Of a stretch of DNA of 64,000 bases, positions 7,602 through 62,856 are shown in pieces. Source of the DNA: Bolinopsis microptera (lineage: Eukaryota; Ctenophora; Tentaculata; Lobata; Bolinopsidae). The DNA lies in NCBI RefSeq assembly GCF_026151205.1, contig NC_087078.1, positions 5,473,675-5,537,674 on the forward strand, given 5' to 3'. The position numbers and the translations under genes are program-made. Numbering within the stretch: position 1 is the stretch's first letter; each line of letters opens with the position of its first letter. Below the pieces are notes generated by a model. The model worked only from the letters and a program-made list of their open reading frames with translations. It had not been told where the DNA came from and searched no databases.

Positions 7602-8796
7602 ATGCCTAAGAAACTAAAGCTTGGCGTCTCTGCAGCATGGTCTTCAGACTCCTCGGGTTGGGGAGTGCCTTCTTCAACCGTTCCCACCGGTTCGTAAACG
7701 ACTTTAAGATTTACTGTTACATGGCGTATTAACTGTCCAAAATATCTTGATTATAAAATTTGCTTGTGTAGCCCCCCGCCCCCCCCCCCCCCCCCCCCCC
7801 CCCCCAATCCTCACTATTTATGCACTTGTTTTGTTATAGTGTAACATTTCAGATAACTGGGGTGGATGGGCTGACACGTGGGGTAACTCGTCAGGAGATA
7901 TCTGGGACAGTGTAGCTTCAGAGCCTGCTGCTGCTGACCCGCCCCCTGATTGGGGTTATGACGACGGCTGGTCTGGCCCTGCGCCAGATTTCCAGGCTAT
8001 GGATCTTTTTCCGTCTTTAGCCGCGAACAAGCAGGGTCCAAAACGTGGGAAAGGATTCGGCAGTCAGCCCCAAAGGCCGAAACCTGCAGACTTTTCAGCT
8101 GTGCTTGGAACTAAAGTTAGTAAGGATCGTAGTGGTGACAAAGGGATGAGCGGCAGACAGAGAAACAGAACTGACAGTCAGGACGGGAAGAGCTGGATCC
8201 AAAACAGCGTTGACATAAATAAAAACCGGTCTTCTCTAGAAAAGCCTATCAGTTCAAATAATTCTATCAGTCAACCCCAATCTATCTCTTATCTAAAGCA
8301 GGCTACAAAGCAGCCTACCCAATCTTTAGAAGATATTCTTTATACTCCCAAGCAGGAACCTGCCCCTTGGGGACCCCCTCCTAAAGTAGTCAATAAACCT
8401 AAACCTCAGTCGGTCAAAGATGTATCGAATAATCCTCAAAATACCGGTAAACCTTTGTCAGTGAACACTGATGTGGATTCAGGGAAACATGATACAAATT
8501 CAAATGTAATGCGTCCAATGAAACCTTGGTTTTTGGAGGAGCCTCCAATTTCAACTGACAGTATTTTCAACAGTTCATCAAATGTGAAATCGGATGTATC
8601 AAAATCACCAGTGCAAGAACAGGTTGTTCAAAAATCGAACACGGTCGTAAAACCTCAAGCTGAAGCGACCCCAGTTGCAGCTAAAAAACCAATTTACAAT
8701 CAGTTGCGAGAACAGTTGCAAAAGGTTAGCAGCTTAGGAAAGCCTCTGGTTTACATTATTCAGAATGGTAATATTACTGTGGAATTTGCTGATTGA
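7602..8796 (+). CDS. Hypothetical protein with a GW/WG-rich N-terminus
   Basis: Two exons are proposed: 7602-7689, then 7853-8796, with the TGA stop at the end, giving 343 residues. Exon 2 alone is a long open frame. Exon 1 is joined on the basis of phase: donor G|gttcgt at 7690 and acceptor cag at 7850-7852. The donor is weak and a stronger-looking GTAAAC four bases further breaks the frame, so exon 1 is less certain. The N-terminal 80 residues are acidic and tryptophan-rich (GWG, WGGW, TWG, DWGYDDGW). The rest is basic, Ser/Pro/Gln-rich and probably disordered, ending YIIQNGNITVEFAD. Clustered GW/WG pairs occur in Argonaute-binding hooks and in some coat-binding proteins. I do not recognise the family. 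Confidence 0.72.
7772..7805 (+). repeat. Poly(C) tract in an intron
   Basis: A run of 34 bases, all C except one G at 7778, inside the intron of the GW-rich gene. It resembles the homopolymer ends of the G-tract elements elsewhere, but no matching terminal repeat flanks it. Confidence 0.9.
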
Positions 8797-11401: not shown

Positions 11402-14400
11402 ATGTCGAGATTCAGAGGAAATCCCCGGTTTGGGGGTCCTGGTCCGGGAGGGCCCCCTCGCCACCTCATGAGAGGAGGCGGTCCACCTAGAGGAGGACGA
11501 GGAGGATTCCAGCAACACCGGGACCGACAGCCCATGAACTTGATGGGTGGACCCGGGCCTAGAGGACCTCCTAGAGATAACGGACCGGGGCCTAGAGGCC
11601 CTCCTAGAGATCGAGGCCACGATGGCCCCAGAGGCCCCTCTAGAGATAGAGGTCAGTGAATAATTTTGTACAGAACCTTATAAGTTCTTTTCTTAAACAT
11701 TCAATTTCGCTTTATTCGTGTCCTAGAAACCTCTTAGAGCCACCAATAAGCATATTTTCTTGACCCCTCGAGTAAACTCTTAATTCAGGAGGTTTCCAGA
11801 ACAACAATTTCCGCGGGCGAGTAAATTTCCGCGGTGGGAACAACCGTGGCCCTATGAACTCATCACCAAGCAGCTCCAACATCAGAACTGAAAGTAAAGA
11901 TAAAAGCGAAGTAAGTTCAATATACAACTTTTCTCGTCCTGTGAGGAAACATTTCAATAAGTGCGAATTGTTATTGTGCAGAAAATTTTACCTGCACAAT
12001 TTTTGATTGGTTTGACTTATTATTGCCACCAGGTTCAAGAATTTCCAGTCCCAGCTGTAAAACCAGCTGTTAAAGATGAACCCAAAGCCGTAGAAGAGCA
12101 GCCTAAAAAAGCGGTTGAGCCAAAGAAAGACGAGCTAATGGATACAGCTGAATCCAGCAAGCCTGCTCCAGCTCCCGAAGCCCCTGCAGAAGTAGTACCT
12201 GCTCCAGAACCGGAGGTTACAAAACCTGATCCAGTGGCCGAAGAGAGCGTTCCACATCTCACGGAGGTTTGTCAAACAAGGAATAGAATTTAACTGTAGG
12301 AAAAACAAACGACAGATAATGAAATTAAACAAAAATTTGTTATTTAACGGGGGGGGGGTGTCACGTCCGTCTATGTCCGCTTGTCTCATAGAATCCAAAA
12401 AGGACAGGACATAGGCGGACATAGGCGGACATAGGCGGACATAGACGGACATAGGCGGACATAGGCGGACATAGGCGGACATAGACGGACATAGGCGGAC
12501 ATAGGCGGACATAGGCGGACATTAATGGACACCTAAATTGCTAAATAAAATGTTCAATTTTTGCTGTTATAGGGGATCATGTTTTTTGTCCGTTCGGTAC
12601 CCTATATTTTCAAAACGGACAAAAAATAGAGCGGACAAAAACGGACAAAAACGGACAAAAATGGAAATAACATTTAGATGCTTCCTCCTCCTACTCTTCC
12701 TCCTCCTCCCCCTGGGTCTTCCTGATCTTCCTCAGTCCTCTTCCTCCTCCCCTCCTCAGTCCTCCTCCTACTCCTCCTCCTCGTCCTCAGTCCTCCTCAT
12801 CAGTCCTCAACAGTCCTCCTCCTCCCCAGTCCTCCTCCTCCTCTTCATCCTCCTCCTCTTCCTCCTCAGTCCTCAGTCCTCCTCAGTCCTCCTCCTCATC
12901 CTTCTTCTCAGTCCTCAGTCCTCCCCCAGTCCCCCTCCTCCTCCTCCTATTCAGTCCTCCTCCTCCTCCTCCTTCTCAGTCCTCCTCAGTCCACCTCCTC
13001 CTCCTCCTCCTCCTCCTCTTCCCTCTCAGTAATCCTCCTCAGCCATCCTCCTTAGTCCTCCTCAGTCCTCCTCCTCAGTCCTCCTCCTCCTGGGTCCTCC
13101 TCCTCCTCTTCATCCTCCTCCTCTTCCTCCTCGGTCCTCAGTCCTCCTCCTCCTGGGTCCTCCTCCTCATCCTTCTCATCAGTCCTCCTCCTCCCCAGTC
13201 CTCTCCCAGTCCCCCTCCTTCTCCTCCTCCTATTCAGTCCTCCTCCTCCTCCTCCAGTTCTCCTCAGTCCTCCTTCTCATTTCTCCTAAGTCCTCCTCCT
13301 GAGTCCTCCTCCTGAGTCCTCCTACTCTTCCTTCTGAGTCCTCCTCCTGAGTCCTCCTCCTCTTCCCTCTCAGTTATCCTCCTCAGTCATCCTCCTCAGC
13401 CATCCTCCCCAGCCATCCTCCTCAGCCATCCTCCTCAGTACTCCTCAGTCCTCCTCCTTCTCAGTCATCGTCAGTCCTCCTCCTCAGTCCTCCTCAGTCC
13501 TCCTCCTCCTCCTGGGTCCTCCTCCTCCTCCTCCTCCTCCTGGGTCCTCCTGGGTCTTCCTGATCCTCCCCAGTCCTCTTCCTCCTCCCCTCCTCAGTCC
13601 TCCTCCTACTCTTCCTCCTCGTCCTCAGTCCTCCTCATCAGTCCTCAACAGTCCTCCTCCTCCCCAGTCCTCCTCCTCCTCTTCATCCTCCTCCTCTTCC
13701 TCCTCAGTCCTCAGTCCTCCTCAGTCCTCCTCCTCATCCTTCTTCTCAGTCCTCCATCCTCCTCCTCAGTCCTCCCCCAGTCCCCCTCCTCCTCCTCCTA
13801 TTCAGTCCTCCTCCTCCTCCTCCTTCTCAGTCCTCCTCAGTCCACCTCCTCCTCCTCCTCCTCCTCCTCTTCCCTCTCAGTAATCCTCCTCAGCCATCCT
13901 CCTTAGTCCTCCTCAGTCCTCCTCCTCAGTCCTCCTCCTCCTGGGTCCTCCTCCTCCTCTTCATCCTCCTCCTCTTCCTCCTCGGTCCTCAGTCCTCCTC
14001 CTCCTGGGTCCTCCTCCTCATCCTTCTCATCAGTCCTCCTCCTCCCCAGTCCTCTCCCAGTCCCCCTCCTTCTCCTCCTCCTATTCAGTCCTCCTCCTCC
14101 TCCTCCAGTTCTCCTCAGTCCTCCTTCTCATTTCTCCTAAGTCCTCCTCCTGAGTCCTCCTCCTGAGTCCTCCTCCTCTTCCTTCTGAGTCCTCCTCCTG
14201 AGTCCTCCTCCTCTTCCCTCTCAGTTATCCTCCTCAGTCATCCTCCTCAGCCATCCTCCCCAGCCATCCTCCTCAGCCATCCTCCTCAGTACTCCTCAGT
14301 CCTCCTCCTTCTCAGTCATCGTCAGTCCTCCTCCTCAGTCCTCCTCAGTCCTCCTCCTCCTCCTGGGTCCTCCTCCTGGGTCCTCCTGGGTCTTCCTGAT

Positions 14401-17400
14401 CCTCCCCAGTCCTCTTCCTCCTCCCCTCTTCAGTCCTCCTCATACTCTTCCTCCTCGTCTTCAGTCCTCATCAGTCCTCAACAGTTCTCCTCCTCCCCAG
14501 TCCTCCTCCTCCTCCTCCTCCTCAGTTCTCCTCAGTCCTCCTTCTCATTTCTCCTAAGTCCTCCTCCTGAGTCCTGCTCCTGAGTCCTCCTCCTCTTCCT
14601 TCTGAGTCCTCCTCCTGAGTCCTCCTCCTCCTCCCTCTCAGTCATCCTCCTCAGTCATCCTCCTCAGCCATCCTCCCCAGCCATCCTCCTCAGCCATCCT
14701 CCTCAGTACTCCTCAGTCCTCCTCCTTCTCAGTCATCGTCAGTCCTCCTCCTCAGTCCTCCTCAGTCCTCCTCAGTCCTCCTCCTCCTCCTGGGTCCTCC
14801 TCCTCCTCCTCCTCCTCCTGGGTCCTCCTGGGTCTTCCTGATCCTCCCCAGTCCTCTTCCTCCTCCCCTCCTCAGTCCTCCTCCTACTCTTCCTCCTCGT
14901 CCTCAGTCCTCCTCATCAGTCCTCAACAGTTCTCCTCCTCCCCAGTCCTCCTCCCCCTTCTGGGGCCTTTTCCTGGGTCCTCCTCCTGGGTCCTCCTCCT
15001 CCTGGGTCCTCCTCCTCCTGGGTCCTCCTTCTCCTCCTCAGTCCTTCTCCTCCTCCTCCTCAGTCCTCTTCCTCCTCTTCCTCCTCCTCCTCCCTCTCAG
15101 TCATCCTCCTCAGCCATCCTCTTCAGCCATCCTCCTCAGTCCTCCTCCTTCTCAGTCCTCCTCAGTCCTCCTCCTGAGTCCTCCTCCTCCTGAGTCATCC
15201 TTCTGGGTCCTCCTCCTCCTCCTCCTCCTGGGTCTTCCTGATCCTTCTCCTCCCTCTCAGTCATCCTCCTCAGTCATCCTCCTCAGCCATCCTCCTCAGC
15301 CATCCTTCTCAGCCATCCTCCTCAGTACTCTTCAGTATTCTTCAGTCCTAAAAATGTTTGTCCGCTAATGTCCACCAATGTCCGCTAATGTCCACCAATG
15401 TCCATCCAAGTCCGCCAATGTCCGTCCGGGTCCGCCAATGTCCGTCCGAGTCCGCCAATGTCCGTCCGAGTCCGCCAATGTCCGTCCGAGTCCGCCAATG
15501 TCCGTCCGTGTCCGCCGTTGTCCCAAAAAACACGTCCGTTGTCTCATAGAATCCAAAAAGGACAGGACATAGGCGGACATAGACGGACATGACACCCCCC
15601 CCCCCCCCTTTAACCTCTAAAATGTATAATCCCACTTGAATGCTGAAAAAAAATGCCGAGGCTCTCTCGATATTTGTTAAGTTAGCTTAGAATGTCACTT
15701 GAAACCCCGCTGAATTCCTGACTCCCCATCAGGTGTACATTAGTGAGTACCTGTGTGACCTCTACCTTGACGTTGATAAAGACGGTGTGACGGGTATCCC
15801 GAAGAGTACAGCTGGGTTTGACTGCTTGTGGGCCTCGCTTCGCGCTACTCACGGTGTTTCTGGGGGCAAGGTATGCTTGAAAATTTCATTAATGATGGAT
15901 TAGTTTGTTGTTCTTGCTGTTGGTTATTGTGTTTTGTCCGTTCGTTTGTTCGTTTGTTTTACGTCTGTTTGTTTAACTCTTCGTTTTCAGGAAGGGATCT
16001 CATCTTTAACTCTTACTTTCAGATGGAAATTGTATTTGTTTGATAGAAACTTGACCAATATTTAAGAACATTATTCTTATTTAGGGTAGCCATGCTTTGC
16101 TCCTGTGTCGGCGGTTATTCATCTAGTGACACCAACAAGACGATCTGCTTATTTGACAGGTTTGTTCTTTTCGATAGTTTTCTTCGGATTTTCACATTCC
16201 TTCTATTATTGATTTGCTTTAGTTAGTTCTTTAATGTTATTGAGTTTGCTACTGGGTATATAGTTATTACGTAATATAATGCATTGTTGCGAAGATTTTA
16301 GTATTTATCTACGAATCTACTATAAAATAAAATCACCAATAATCAAAACTTATTTAATGCATGATCCGCAAAGTTTCCCCGACAGCTATTATAGCCATGT
16401 TTGCGCAATTCTCCTTGTACACCGTCAGTGACGATAATTATATCTGTTTCCGATAAAAATGCGATAATAGTCACGTGGGTTTATAGAGACATAAAGAAGG
16501 TTTCTAGTTTTGAGTTAGGTATTTCAATATTAAATACGGGTCGAAGAAAGCAACTTATTTCAGCAACACCCATCTAGATCTCACTACACTCTGATCCCGT
16601 AAATTATGTCTTCTGCTAACCACGATTGATGAAGATCTCGTCATATCATATGGGGTTTTTTAGATAGCTAGAAGAAGAAATAGGATATGGGAGGATATTC
16701 ACTATATTTCTGTTCGATTCGGTTCGAAATATTTTGAAAGTTGTTTACATCCCCCGCGTTACGCATCGCCTTGCAGTTTTCTGCGTAATTTTTCAGAGAA
16801 CAGTACCTTTGATAAAAAAGACATGGTCATAGCGATAATATATTGGTTGGGTAATGGGTATTAATTGGATCCTTTTCTGGAACTTTTAATAGAGGTGAAG
16901 TTTTAAGATGTTTACATGAGCCCATATTATAAAGTGCCCCATTTACGTATAGTGTTCAGCGTTAGCAAAGCTGAATTAACATATTTCATAACTCAGTCAA
17001 CAGTAAATTAACAGTATTACTATTAGGAGGCAAAAAGCTGGAATGGAAGTGATCACTATATATAAGCACTACTTATTTACTTGAATCATCGTTTTGTACC
17101 AAAATTGCTCTCCATGAGGCACCGATACGTACCGGGGGAAAAAAAACAAACAAGTGGAGTATTATTCAAAGTTGTTTTATTTATTATAGGTTTTTAAACC
17201 TCGATCTCACGAAACGGACCACGCTCTTAAACACATAGCTGGCGAGCGACTGCTTCACGTAATAAATCACGTACGTCTTTTAAGTGGTTCCCGCACTGTA
17301 TTGCGACAACGCTTTTAATTATTATAAACAAAATTTAACTTAATTAAAATTAATCAGTGAAAAGGAAATTTTCGTTCCTCGAGTACGGCTCACCTTAATT

Positions 17401-23400: not shown

Positions 23401-26400
23401 AGGGTGGAGGTGTTTAAAATGGCGAAAATCTGGCTTACGTAATTTATGAACGGTCCCTGATGCAATCGTACCGATATTATAGGAAGTTCAAATATTTATG
23501 AAATAACGATTTCCAAAGTCGTTTTAAAAATCCTGAGTCCAAATCACACTGCTTCTAGAAAAATTACGTCACAAGCCGAGTTACTACGGTACTAAATACC
23601 AATATTCGCGAAGTTCTAAATTTCGTGATTTTATATTCTGACACCTGGTTCCATGATAATTTGTATTTTAAAGTTAACCCCTACTGCTCCGGCCGTGCAC
23701 CTGGTTTAATGTTAACTTAGTAACAGAGGTCACGAGCGTCGTGTTATTTACGGTTCCACTGGAAATAGGCAAAACAACCTGAGCTCTGACTGTTGAGGAA
23801 AGCTCGTCATAAAATTTGAAACCATCTACAAAAGCCACATCATAATAGGAGATGCTGGCGTGTTACGTACCGTCTAGCTAGGGTCTAAGTCTCAGGATCT
23901 TATTGTAATGCAGTATCAAAATAGATATCAGGATAATATAATAACTGTGCTGTTTGTGATAAGCCAGTATATAAGGGGAGACTGCGGGGTGTCTACAGAT
24001 TGAGATATCTATTCCACTGAAACTTCAAACACCGAGACGGTTTAACTCCAAACAAATCAAAATACTACCAGCTTATCCGAACTCGTGTTGTCACAAGGTA
24101 TTGAAATACGGATTTTAAGCTGGCCCAGCTCTACTTTGGATTACCTGGTCCGAGGTTCGGTTTTTAACTGAAAATCACCAAAAGTCGTGTTAAGAACATG
24201 TGACATGTGTATCATAGAACTACAGTCTCATCACGTGGTAATAAGGAACGTTGAGGTGGTTAAAGTGAGTCAGGTGTGCCAGCAATTAACAGTGTTAATT
24301 TGTGTAACCACTAACCAGTGGTTACCAGTAGTTACCAGTGGTTACCAGTGGTTACCAGTGGTTACCAGTAGTTACCAGTGGTTACAGTAATCACAGTTAT
24401 TTAATTTTGACTTTATTTTGCAGTTGACACCTCTCATTCTTCAGATAGCGTTTGAAGTGTTGGCACTAGAGAACACCACTAGTAGTACGGAACAGAATGC
24501 TTGTGTACTCAGAGTCGGCTGGTCGCATGATGAGATCGATATATCCGTGAGTTCTTTATTTATTGTTATTTTTTTGTATTTCCTACTTGAATATCTTTGA
24601 TGATCATATCTAAGTTATTCATTATAACAGAGTTATTCATTATCACATCATAACACTGAGTTATTCATTATTAATATTAATTATTACTCAGCTGTTGTTA
24701 TTTCTGCCTTCATTCAGTTTCATAATGAATTATGTATGATACTGATTGTTGCAGTTCAGTCGTTATTTGTATTTATTTTTTAATTATGTCCAAAAATCGT
24801 TCTTATGAGTTATCAAAATTGATGTCATCTAAAATACAAAATAATACACATATTATACACTACTTCACTATAAGTTTTAAACATTTGATTCAAACTTTTT
24901 CAAACAATAAAATTCCGAAATTACCGCACGTTATAAGTTATTTGATTTAAAAGGCGAACCCTGTAGCTGAACATCATACAACAAGATGTTTAAAGTGTAT
25001 AAGTTGCAACTTCCCTCCGAATTTAGGGGGTTGGGATTTGGCAACCCTCTTCGGATCATTGATATGTCCGTAATTTATAGAATAATCAATTGAAAACCGT
25101 AGTTAACGTTACGATACAATTAATATAGACGTCAAGAAATCTTTTGTATTAAAATGTTTCACTTCCTAAATTGCCAAAAGTTCATCTTCAGTTGAGCATA
25201 CAGAACATGAAAACGCCCAAGTCATAGTAAAGATCCTGCCTCATAGCGCTCTTTACCATCTTCCTCCAGGATTCCCAATGTTCCTCGCTGTCAATGCTTG
25301 TTGTCATAACTCCAGATCCATCAATGAGCTGCTCTGCAACATCTCTCAGCAGCTGTTAAGATAGTGGTATTACTATTAAGGGACATGTAATGTAGTCCGA
25401 GGAGTCCTAATCCTCGGACTAATTTAATCCTCCTCGCGTTCTAAAATGCCAGATGGCTTTTCTCTTCTAACATTTTATTATATGTAAGCAAATTTTCGCT
25501 GTAGAATAGTTTCCGAATGTTTTGAGCAAGGTTTGTATTGATTTTTATTGAGTCCGAACACCGAACACGTAACAAACAATAACCCCCCCCCACAGTATCC
25601 CCCAACAGTATCCCCTATATGTTGAGTCTTACCTCCACGTCACTACCACTAAAATCAAACTCCGCCAGACGAGGCCAAACAGGTTTTAAGAATTTTATGG
25701 TGATACCAAGCTCGTAGCCAAGGCTGCTTGGGCTGCTTCTCTTCTTTCTGGGACTTAGATCTGAAATAATTCCCTACTATAAAAAGATGCAGCTACATGT
25801 TTAAAATTTAAAATTCGTGGTTAGAAAATCGAGATCTGATTATAAAGATGACCATAGCCTGGAAAACTACTAACAAGGAGCAGTGAGTGTAGAATTTCCA
25901 GAGGTAATCCCTGGGTATCTGATCTTGAAGGCCAGCAGATTCATGTACTGCATGATACCGTTATTCTCAATATCCTTCATACATCCACACACTTCGGATT
26001 CTGGGTCCAGCAGTTTAGCCGCCAGGTCATACTGTTTAGCAGCTTGGTTCCATAGCTCGGCCATGTGGAAAACGTGTGTTGCCATCTCAAGAGGGCTGTA
26101 ACCTTTCACCTGCCAGTCGGCTCTGTCCATGTTTCTCATCACCTGGGCGATGTTTGTTGGAAATGGGGGGGGGGGGGGGGGGGGGGGAGAAATAGAGATA
26201 AAGTATGGTTTTTTGTTTTGTGTTTAGAAACATTTCTGACGGATTACAGCCTACAAAGTGTTTAATGTTACCTTACCATATCAAACTGTCTCATAGCTGG
26301 AGTGGAGAAGTCGTCATCATAACCAGCCAGGGGGGCATGAGGGAGCACTCTCTCCTCACTATCCATATCCGGGTTCACTGAAAATACAAGCTATTATCAC

Positions 26401-34933: not shown

Positions 34934-34939
34934 TATATA

Positions 34940-37793
34940 GGGGGGGGGGGGGGGGGGTGTCACGTCCGTCTATGTCCGCTTGTCTCATAGAATCCAAAAA
35001 GGACAGGACATAGGCGGACATAGACGGACATAGACGGACATAGGCGGACATAGACGGACATAGGCGGACATTGGCGGACATAGACGGACATATACGGACA
35101 TTAATGGACACCTAAATTGCTAAATAAAATGTTTAATTTTTGCTGTTATATCATGTTTTTTGTCCGTTCGGTACCCTATATTTTCAAAACGGACAAAAAT
35201 GGACAAAAACGGACTAAAATGGAAATAACATTTAGATGCTTCCTCCTCCTACTCTTCCTCCTCCTCCTCCTAGGTCTTCCTGATCTTCCTCAGTCCTCTT
35301 CCTCCTCCCCTCCTCAGTCCTCCTCCTACTCCTACTCCTCCTCCTCGTCCTCAGTCCTCCTCATCAGTCCTCAACAGTCCTCCTCCTCCCCAGTCCTCCT
35401 CCTCCTCCTCCTGAGTCCTCCTCCTGGGTCCTCCTCCTGGGTCCTCCTCCTCCTCTTCATTCTCCTCCTCTTCCTCCTCAGTCCTCCTCAGTCCTCCTCC
35501 TCATCCTTCTCCTCAGTCCTCCATCCTCCTCCTCAGTCCCCCTCCTACTCCTCCTATTCAGTTCTCCTCCTTCTCCTCCTCAGTCCTCCTCCTTCTCAGT
35601 CCTCCTGAGTCCTCCTCCTCCTCTTCTCCTCCTAGGTCTTCCTGATCTTCCTCAGTCCTCTTCCTCCTCCCCTCCTCAGTCCTCCTCCTACTCCTACTCC
35701 TCCTCCTCGTCCTCAGTCCTCCTCATCAGTCCTCAACAGTCCTCCTCCTCCCCAGTCCTCCTCCTCCTCCTCCTGAGTCCTCCTCCTGGGTCCTCCTCCT
35801 GGGTCCTCCTCCTCCTCTTCATTCTCCTCCTCTTCCTCCTCAGTCCTCCTCAGTCCTCCTCCTCATCCTTCTCCTCAGTCCTCCATCCTCCTCCTCAGTC
35901 CCCCTCCTACTCCTCCTATTCAGTTCTCCTCCTTCTCCTCCTCAGTCCTCCTCCTTCTCAGTCCTCCTGAGTCCTCCTCCTCCTCTTCTTCCCTCTCAGT
36001 CATCCTCCTCAGCCATCCTCCTGGGTCCTCCTCCTCAGTCCTCCTCCTCCTGGGTCCTCCTCCTCTTCTTCATCCTCCTCATCTTCCTCCTCGGTCCCCA
36101 GTCCTCCTCCTCAGTCCTCCTCATCATCCTTCTCATCAGTTCTCCTTCTCCTCAGTCCTCTCCCAGTCCCCCTCCTTCTCCTCTTCCTATTCAGTCCTCC
36201 TCCCCCTCCTCCTCCTCAGTTCTCCTCAGTCCTCCTTCTCATTTCTCCTAAGTCCTCCTCCTGAGTCCTCCTTCTGAGTCCTCCTCTTCCTCCTGAGTCC
36301 TCCTCCTGAGTCCTCCCCCTCCTCCCTCTCAGTCATCCTCCTCATTCATCCCCCTCAGCCATCCTCCTCAGCCATCCTCCTCAGTACTCCTCAGTCCTCC
36401 TCCTTCTCAGTCATCGTCAGTCCTCCTCCTCAGTCCTCCTCAGTCCTCCTTCTCCTCCTGGGTCCTCCTCCTCCTCCTCCTCCTGGGTCCTCCTCCTGGG
36501 TCTTCCTGATCCTCCCCAGTCCTCTTCCTCCTCCCCTCCTCAGTCCTCCTCCTACTCCTCCTCCTCGTCCTCAGTTCTCCTCATCAGTCCTCAACAGTCC
36601 TCCTCCTCCCCAGTCCTCCTCCTCCTCCTGGGGCCTTTTCCTGGGTCCTCCTCCTGGGTCCTCCTCCTCCTGGGTCCTCCTCCTCCTGGGTCCTCCTTCT
36701 CCTCCTCAGTCCTTCTCCTCCTCCTCCTCAGTTCTCTTCCTCCTCTTCCTCCTCCTCCTCCCTCTCAGTCATCCTCCTCAGCCATCCTCCTCAGCCATCC
36801 TCCTCAGCCATCCTCCTCAGTCCTCCTCCTTCTCAGTCCTCCTCCTGAGTCCTCCTCCTCCTGAGTCATCCTCCTCAGTTCTCCTCCTCCTCCTCCTAGG
36901 TCCTCCTTCTGGGTTTTCCTCCTCCTCCTTCTCCTGGGTCTTCCTGATCCTCCTCCTCCCTCTCAGTCATCCTCCTCAGTCATCCTCCTCAGTCATCCTC
37001 CTCAGCCATACTCCTCAGCCATCCTCCTCAGTACTCTTCAGTACTCAACAGTCCTCCACCTTCTCAGTCCTCCTCAGTCCTCCTCCTGAGTCCTCCTCCT
37101 CCTGAGTCATCCTCCTCAGTCCTCCTCCTCCTCCTGGGTCCTCCTCCTGGGTCCTCCTCCTGGGTCTTCCTGAGTCCTCTTCAGTCCTCTTCCTCCTCCC
37201 CTCCTCAGTTCTCCTCCTACTCCTCCTCCTCGTCCTCAGTCCTCCTCATCAGTCCTCAACAGTCCTCCTCCTCTCCAGTCCTCCTCCTCCTCCTCCTCCT
37301 CCTGGGGCCTTTGATAAAATTTGATAAAATAAGTTAAAGCTATTAATAGCTTTAGTGCGATTAATAAGTTATATTCCCTATATATATTTCGTTAAATAGG
37401 TACTGTGCCTACTGTGTACCCTGTGTAACTGTTTCAAAGATATGTTGACGACACAAATAGATCTGGATTTAGCGACCGGATTTGGTGACTGGATTTAATT
37501 AAATATTGGGAATATTTGTGAGATCTTTATTCTTTAGACCTCTTATATGTCCGCTGATGTCCACCAATGTCCGTCCGAGTCCGCCAATGTCCGTCCGGGT
37601 CCGCAAATGTCCGTCCGAGTCCGCCAATGTCCGTCCGAGTCCGCCAATGTCCGTCCGAGTCCGCCAATGTCCGTCCGTGTCCGCCAATGTCCGTCTGTGT
37701 CCGCCAATGTCCCAAAAAACACGTCCGTTGTCTCATAGAATCCAAAAATGACAGGACATAGGCGGACATAGACGGACGTGACACCCCCCCCCC
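34940..37793. mobile_element. Foldback-like satellite-filled element, copy 2
   Basis: Same plan as the copy at 12.3 kb. An 18-G tract and TGTCACGTCCGTCTATG form the left end; the inverted complement and 10 C form the right end. TATATA flanks both sides (34934-34939 and 37794-37799), a perfect 6-bp target-site duplication. The GGCGGACATA array is at about 35005-35100. The unique ~120 bp is nearly identical to copy 1 (CACCTAAATTGCTAAATAAA; CGTTCGGTACCCTATATTTT). CT-rich satellite fills 35236-37310. It is followed by about 200 bp of AT-rich sequence absent from copy 1, then the inverted 10-mer array (37547-37710). It is intergenic, 66 bp upstream of the next start codon. Confidence 0.88.
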
Positions 37794-37858
37794 TATATAC
37801 TGAAACATCTGAGGTATATTCCTGAACTTCTTTGTTGCTATATACTACTCCTTAAAGA

Positions 37859-42837: not shown

Positions 42838-57838
<15,001 letters not shown>

Positions 57839-62147: not shown

Positions 62148-62856
62148 GGGGGGGGGGGGGGGGGGGGGGGGGCCAACCATATTAAAGTATATTAAAATGT
62201 AGGATTTTTCCCGATTTTGACCCGGGGATATACTTTAATATACTTTAATATACCTACAATATACTTTAATATCCCTATCTCCTTGGAGGCCTACTTCAAA
62301 AATTGTTGCCCAAAATAAGCTTGAAATGCAATTCTTAATCTATTCCAAAAAGTTCTTGAAAAAATATTGAAAACTGATGGAGTTATTTCAATTTTAATGA
62401 AGTCATTTTGGCTAGTATTCCGAACCGAGATATTATGTGCAATTTTCCCAATTTTGTTCATGGAGGTCTTTTTACTTAGTATCCACTATATTCAACAAAC
62501 ACTGAGTTATATCTTTCACATAGAGTTAGTCTCATTAAAAAATATTGAAATTTTATCGAATTTGGTCAAAAGCGAATTTGGGCAAAAGCGTATGCCCAAA
62601 TATGGGCATACTTTTTAAAGCTCATAGCTCAGCCAATTTTTGACCAATCTGGATGGAAATTCATGTACTAGTCCTAAAACAGGCTTATCTTGCGAATCTG
62701 AGTGAAAAATATAGTTCATCATGTAAATCTTAACGAAGAATATAAATCTTCTAATTGTAGGTATATTAAAGTATATTAAAATGTAGGATTTTTTCCGATT
62801 TTGACCCGGGGATATACTTTAATATACTTTAATATGGTTGGCCCCCCCCCCCCCCC
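62148..62856. mobile_element. G-tract terminal-repeat element with 6-bp TSD
   Basis: The left end is 25 G then CCAACCATATTAAAGTATAT; the right end is the inverted complement then 15 C. TTTTTT flanks both sides (62142-62147 and 62857-62862). Both ends carry the same ~75-bp module in direct orientation (TGTAGGATTTTTCCCGATTT, GACCCGGGGATA), bounded by tandem 10-mers TATACTTTAA and their inverses. The interior is AT-rich and encodes nothing. Its right edge is 33 bp from the TIMP start codon. Confidence 0.85.

Follow-up and report, generated by a model that had tools for sequence, protein, structure and literature searches.

Elements with G/C-tract ends in the Bolinopsis microptera window

The DNA analysed here (hereafter the window) is a stretch of 64,000 nucleotides of the ctenophore Bolinopsis microptera, positions 5473675-5537674 of contig NC_087078.1, and the genome searched with it comprises 264.65 Mb in 232 contigs. 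At 12349-15608 the window contains a repetitive element, called copy 1 of family 1 in this work, which an initial annotation made from the letters alone had described as a Foldback-like, satellite-filled transposon. We found that family 1 has many copies in the genome and is very probably a young, non-autonomous, Foldback-like DNA transposon, and that the window also holds a member of a second family, family 2, which is built on the same plan. Copy 1 has the following features.

12343-12348, no strand: left target-site duplication TTTAAC (sequence and duplication table)
12349-12358, + strand: terminal G tract, G10 (tract listing)
12349-12387, + strand: left arm of the 39-nt terminal inverted repeat (inverted-repeat comparison, 90% complementary)
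12365-12430, + strand: left hairpin module, its two arms (12365-12387, 12408-12430) being 83% complementary; z of the fold -5.3
12381-12406, + strand: spacer TTGTCTCATAGAATCCAAAAAGGACA of the left end (sequence)
12407-12522, + strand: left array, 11.6 copies of GGACATAGGC (tandem-repeat analysis)
12526-12682, + strand: left subterminal non-satellite stretch, containing a short CGGACAAAAA array at 12632-12665
about 12683-15330, + strand: CT-rich minisatellite cargo, ~2.6 kb, commonest long-range period 851 bp
15370-15516, + strand: right array, 7.3 copies of a 20-bp unit (GTCCGCCAATGTCCGTCCGA) (tandem-repeat analysis)
15539-15564, + strand: second TTGTCTCATAGAATCCAAAAAGGACA spacer, in the same orientation as that of the left end (sequence)
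15566-15604, + strand: right arm of the terminal inverted repeat (inverted-repeat comparison)
15595-15608, + strand: C tract, C14 (tract listing)
15609-15614, no strand: right target-site duplication TTTAAC (sequence and duplication table)

The G10 and C14 tracts stand directly inside the two copies of TTTAAC, as had been proposed, and since they lie within the target duplication, they belong to the element. Inside the G tract, family 1 elements start with TG and finish with CA. The short terminal inverted repeat and the CT-rich minisatellite interior named in the initial annotation were likewise recovered, and so was the Foldback-like anatomy, with inverted arrays of tandem motifs at the ends. 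Its claim that a single 10-bp repeat forms both arrays was correct in part: the inner inverted arrays (125 nt, 74-79% complementary) have a GGACA/TGTCC core in common, but the unit differs, that of the right array being 20 bp long.

Family 1 copies across the genome

An exact 16-base family 1 end occurs at 749 places genome-wide and a 26-base end, with at most 3 mismatches allowed, at 820 places, while the reversed control gave 0 in both searches. The genome search with the ends that had been suggested earlier thus found a boundary common to the copies. One further copy lies in the window itself.

34940-37793, + strand: copy 2 of family 1, with TATATA at 34934-34939 and 37794-37799

On contig C1, the 80 exact ends among those listed form 34 inward-facing pairs, which span 1,775-6,022 bp (median 2,632 bp), and leave 12 ends unpaired. 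In the DNA search for family 1, the best 40 of 1565 first-look candidates were scored. We read 44 loci (L017-L060), drawn from the best-match and exact-end lists, so that young copies are over-represented among them. One complete element each was obtained from 33 of these loci, and together with the two in the window they make up the 35 complete copies considered below. The other 11 (L029, L034, L043, L044, L045, L046, L047, L049, L050, L052 and L054) yielded none, the element being truncated, nested or mutated at an end, or the stretch read being too short. The left subterminal stretch has a recognised relative in 31 of the 35 copies, and these differ from the column consensus by 0.8% on average.

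Insertions are flanked by 6-bp duplications with a TA-centred consensus

When the duplication was required to be exact and flush with the element, a 6-bp repeat was present in 28 of 33 copies and in 7 of 1056 mispaired flanks. Under a looser rule, by which up to 2 bases of the run may join the duplication (with the interrupted run of L041 treated, and L048 added, by hand), a perfect 6-bp duplication flanks 34 of the 35 complete copies, as compared to 10 of 1190 mispaired controls given the same freedom. Tabulation of the flanks thus bears out the duplication length proposed for copy 1. Loci L046 and L047, whose flanks match at 5 of 6 bases by eye, were excluded from the count. The duplications follow the consensus NWTAWN: 29 of 34 have T at position 3, and the same number have A at position 4; the central TA is present in 26 of 34, while TA accounts for 8.9% in the flanks. 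Terminal inverted repeats (39 nt and 90% complementary in copy 1) enclosed by a duplication of fixed length (a perfect 6 bp in 34 of 35 copies) agree with a class II transposon of the terminal-inverted-repeat type.

The closest of 161 compared pairs of similar length are the elements of L058 (contig C11) and L059 (contig C1), which, aligned over the whole element minus the runs, show 2201 matches, 3 mismatches and 10 gap columns. Their flanks align with a score of about zero and their duplications differ (ACTAAA and TCTGTA). As the two elements are alike, satellite included, in unrelated flanks, the satellite must move together with the ends.

For 6 insertions in repetitive flanks we joined the flanks by script and looked for relatives of the joined sequence. 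A paralogous, empty-site-like relative spanning the junction exists for 4 of the 6 (L022, L024, L028 and L036). The relative of L036 is its own tandem repeat (111/114 columns). The relative of L028 lies in L024 (148/168 columns), that of L024 in L028 (124/154 columns) and that of L022 in L018 (167/225 columns). The L024 alignment has one gap at the junction, because the duplication of this copy takes one G from the run.

The duplications, the L058/L059 pair in unrelated flanks and the junction-spanning relatives all agree with the earlier view that copy 1 moved as a unit; neither of the two outcomes that would have contradicted it, copies lacking a shared boundary or flanks lacking direct repeats, turned up when searched for. 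Family 1 elements insert with a 6-bp duplication and a target preference, and carry satellite with them.

The ends are constant and the interior is cargo

The interior of the copies has a mean C+T share of 0.80 (a mean in which L051 is oriented wrongly). In the rest of the window, 5 of 2885 60-base windows are equally pure in C+T or G+A, and these are located at 47541-47581 and 49241-49261. Two loci, L045 (1300-7001) and L046 (300-1240), have the same ends and another, non-CT tandem-repeat cargo, with a period of 502 bp in L045; pieces of this repeat cargo are found widely across the genome. The ends thus stay constant while the cargo varies, and the whole interior, with its minisatellite, travels as such cargo.

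The family thus offers a copy-by-copy view of a minisatellite carried to new sites, which is one proposed origin of dispersed satellite DNA; in Drosophila virilis the foldback-type transposon Tetris is a source or vehicle of tandem repeats. Copy 1 had been suggested to be a vehicle that spreads satellite into introns. This is half borne out: carriage of satellite is shown, and copy 1 is placed between two open reading stretches whose GT and AG borders are plausible, while introns as preferred targets are conjectural.

As to the ends, the left G tract of the 35 copies measures 6-36 bases (median 11) and the right C tract 5-30 (median 10), the two lengths being uncorrelated (r 0.05, 33 copies). 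GGACA occurs on average 12.8 times in the first 260 bases and TGTCC 11.3 times in the last 300, whereas the middle of the element has 1.4 of either motif per kb (L051 being oriented wrongly in these counts too). In both window copies, none of 200 shuffles folds as well as the left end (z -5.3 and -6.6). The right end is not clearly better than shuffles, 3 of 200 being at least as good in copy 2 (z -2.34).

A second family shares the end plan

A list of the window's G and C tracts brought to light a shorter element.

62148-62856, + strand: family 2 element, 709 bp, G25 ... C15, TTTTTT on both sides

Its inverted repeat is 44 nt long (95%), and each end carries one copy of a 73-nt direct repeat (the two are 99% alike), which forms a hairpin by itself, 27 nt separating its 23-nt arms; the two hairpins fold with z -2.3 and -3.0, and 3 and 2 of 200 shuffles, respectively, were as good. 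The ends of the two families show no similarity beyond that of shuffled sequences, 38 of 100 of which align equally well. An exact 20-base family 2 end is present at 247 places genome-wide (control 0), and the scored copies, the best 40 of 1321 candidates, are 98-100% identical.

The duplication TTTTTT of the window copy, being a homopolymer, is weak evidence by itself. The junctions examined number 21, those of 20 scored copies and that of the window: a perfect 6-bp duplication is present at 16 of 21, as compared to 7 of 420 mispaired controls. The flanks at L087/L088 and L095/L096 are the same but for one base, and judging from them these are probably one insertion that was duplicated. If this pair is counted once and the window copy omitted, 14 of 19 junctions have the 6-bp duplication.

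Family 2 shares the plan of family 1, as its elements end in G/C tracts, have a hairpin module that recurs in direct orientation at the two ends, and lie mostly within 6-bp duplications. Because two families that are unlike in sequence share such unusual ends, the end plan looks like the feature that is recognised, and as such it opens the way to a direct search for the enzyme.

A third candidate (L033:18-2077) was set aside, as its inverted repeat runs on outside the G tract and its plan thus differs. For the other long tracts of the window, at 26165-26187 and 7772-7805, the scan gave no partner with an inverted repeat.

Coding capacity and candidates for an autonomous partner

The 35 complete copies contain 451 reading frames of at least 80 residues, 390 of which are of low complexity. 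The other 61 are no longer than 155 residues and resemble frames running through the arrays or the edges of the satellite; the 10 of them that were scanned gave no Pfam match. Frames were also listed for nine incomplete or unpaired-end loci, and the selection of these frames that was scanned contained no transposase of these elements. All 12 unpaired ends of contig C1 lie in loci read (L039, L043-L052), of which L045 and L052 extend past the stretch read. Frames scanned inside the elements of L045, which was covered short of its right end, and L046 had no Pfam match. A full-length relative with the same ends and a transposase, which the initial annotation had suggested looking for, was thus not found among the loci read and the frames scanned.

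Several candidates for such a partner were rejected. L049 and L050 contain frames of the LINE (long interspersed nuclear element) type; in L049 a GDSL-lipase-like match lies beside them. A pair of ends on contig C2 (6.5 kb, 6752769-6759297) was sampled over 251 bases and contains a LINE-like frame, similar to that of L049 with an E value of 7e-8 in a single comparison; its length is probably explained by a nested LINE. The insert in L044 is an unrelated insertion with inverted repeats and 8-bp flanks of its own, and nothing in Pfam scores above the cut-off against its 99-residue frame. Two other matches of the scans, YEATS in L048 and a leucine-rich repeat in L054, fall in stretches taken for host DNA.

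Copy 2 has a 236-base non-satellite stretch near its right end (37310-37545), for which 20 of 41 genome matches exceed 100 bp; it was considered as a remnant of an autonomous form, and the 3 further loci read on this account all proved to be ordinary family 1 copies. Unusual continuations of the exact ends are rare, with 2 and 1 places for family 1 and 1 place for family 2. Of the three in family 1, one is L046 and another (L060) turned out to be an ordinary copy when read. The exact-end patterns would miss an autonomous copy with a diverged end.

Proposed mechanism and the evidence against it

Taken together, these observations are best read, and we consider this highly likely, as non-autonomous foldback-type elements that are moved in trans by an enzyme making 6-bp duplications. 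Each end consists of the G tract, followed by the short inverted repeat and then by the hairpin module and the GGACA/TGTCC motif array, whose motifs are probably repeated binding sites. A DDE transposase or retrovirus-type integrase supplied in trans might bind these arrays and cut at the boundary of the G tract; the element would then be joined to the target at a staggered, TA-centred cut of 6 bp, the repair of which would leave the 6-bp duplication. Internal tandem duplication may alter the length of the satellite, and slippage that of the G tract, and family 2 most likely uses the same or a related enzyme. Tracts of 5-36 bases raise the question of how an enzyme finds its boundary at a homopolymer.

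Some observations speak against this interpretation. Within family 1, L051 is the sole complete copy of the 35 without a duplication. The empty-site-like alignments are imperfect, with a 12-base gap near the junction in the relative of L028 and three bases missing at the junction in that of L022, and for the remaining two insertions tested, L040 and L041, no junction-spanning relative was obtained. In copy 1 the fold of the right end was matched or beaten by 40 of 200 shuffles (z -0.85), and as it is no better than shuffled sequence, the hairpins may be non-functional. In family 2 the duplication has 5 bp at three of the 21 junctions, 7 bp at one and is missing at one, and the duplications are A/T-rich without a central TA. 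Finally, no enzyme was found in the copies read, which are a minority of those in the genome, so that movement in trans is an inference.

Relation to known systems

One conceivable, though tentative, explanation is that the elements form an undescribed superfamily whose marks are ends in G tracts, hairpin modules in direct orientation and duplications of 6 bp. This plan is common to two families whose sequences show no detectable similarity, and each of the superfamilies compared, IS3EU, Dada, Tm1 and Maverick, fails at least one tested feature and so does not fit; the earlier statement that no superfamily could be named holds with respect to these four. On the other hand, no enzyme of such a superfamily is known, and the fact that Repbase lists unclassified non-autonomous families with 6-bp duplications also counts against the idea. 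It is somewhat doubtful, too, that G ends, direct hairpin modules and 6-bp duplications mark a new superfamily including both families, whose enzyme would tolerate the G tract or make it, for instance through backward sliding while a linear intermediate is copied from a protein primer. Among the titles and abstract beginnings surveyed, none describes such elements, and we do not claim that they are unpublished. Dada elements lack terminal inverted repeats according to the available part of their description (PMC3706591), whereas family 1 has them; nor was the insertion into small RNA genes that is typical of Dada seen in the window, which has no Rfam match at gathering score.

It is rather unlikely that the elements belong, as divergent members that acquired G tracts at their ends, to IS3EU/GingerRoot or another known DDE superfamily making 6-bp duplications. 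In the accessible text of PMC10045372, IS3EU duplications are usually 6 bp long, and GingerRoot combines 6 bp with occasional TG..CA ends, which recalls the TG and CA found inside the G tract of family 1. However, complete IS3EU families always have TA..TA termini according to the same portion of that source (PMC10045372), and here it is the G tract, not TG..CA, that the duplication adjoins.

An origin as non-autonomous derivatives of a Polinton/Maverick-like element is attractive, if speculative, and on balance we regard it as unlikely. A retrovirus-type integrase would account for the 6-bp duplication, and sliding back on a terminal repeat, a property of protein-primed polymerases, for a homopolymer end of variable length. 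The rve-type integrases of polinton-like viruses typically yield 6-bp duplications, as stated in the part of PMC12220804 available to us. Vertebrate Mavericks, as far as the available part of PMC8097293 describes them, likewise combine 6-bp duplications and terminal inverted repeats with terminal micro-repeats, (AGT)2, (AG)3 or (AC)3A, of which (G)n may be regarded as the period-1 form. Still, the ends here are (G)n and do not carry these published motifs; vertebrate Mavericks measure 12.7-24.6 kb, contain many genes and end in AG, AGT or AC repeats in the same description (PMC8097293), whereas the copies here measure 0.7-6 kb, have no recognisable genes and end in G. The scanned selection of frames gave no polymerase, capsid or integrase match.

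Foldback elements proper, that is Drosophila FB, Galileo (P superfamily) or a Mutator-type foldback such as Tm1, are a very unlikely identity. FB, Galileo and the sea urchin TU elements have long inverted arrays of short tandem repeats, with middles that are modular and differ between copies; family 1 matches FB in its long inverted arrays of ~10-bp repeats, but not in the 9-bp duplication of FB. Galileo makes 7-bp duplications; over FB, Galileo and TU elements the duplications measure 7-9 bp, and none of the three is known to have G-tract ends. Tm1 of root-knot nematodes resembles family 1 in its composite terminal inverted repeats of tandem motifs (mostly 14 bp, in variable number) and exists in forms like miniature inverted-repeat transposable elements as well as in cargo-bearing forms, as given in the available portion of PMC3169594. 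The same text reports duplications of 8-10 bp, mostly 9, without a consensus, as well as asymmetric 7-bp terminal motifs and a Mutator-type transposase (PMC3169594), in contrast to the TA-centred 6 bp, the G-tract ends and the lack of any transposase seen here.

That no transposon is involved, the structure being a local satellite expansion with chance flanking repeats or a segmental duplication, is hardly credible and is disproved for the copies read by the 34 of 35 duplications, the unrelated flanks and the junction-spanning relatives, even though the interior is a tandem repeat, long G tracts are prone to slippage and the shared flanks of L087/L088 and L095/L096 in family 2 attest that flanking duplication does occur.

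Additional observations

The insertion within the family 1 copy of L044 (1375-2209) is bounded by inverted repeats GGCAGTATCGAGATAGCC and 8-bp flanks CCTCAGCC; its short frame, for which Pfam gave no match above the cut-off, resembles the start of a Merlin/IS1016-type transposase. In L054, a near-identical frame (SAVNLSGHFHLLLSEDCT...) lies on either side of a one-ended copy, at 11-262 and 1876-2127, and the flanking DNA seems to have been duplicated around this copy.

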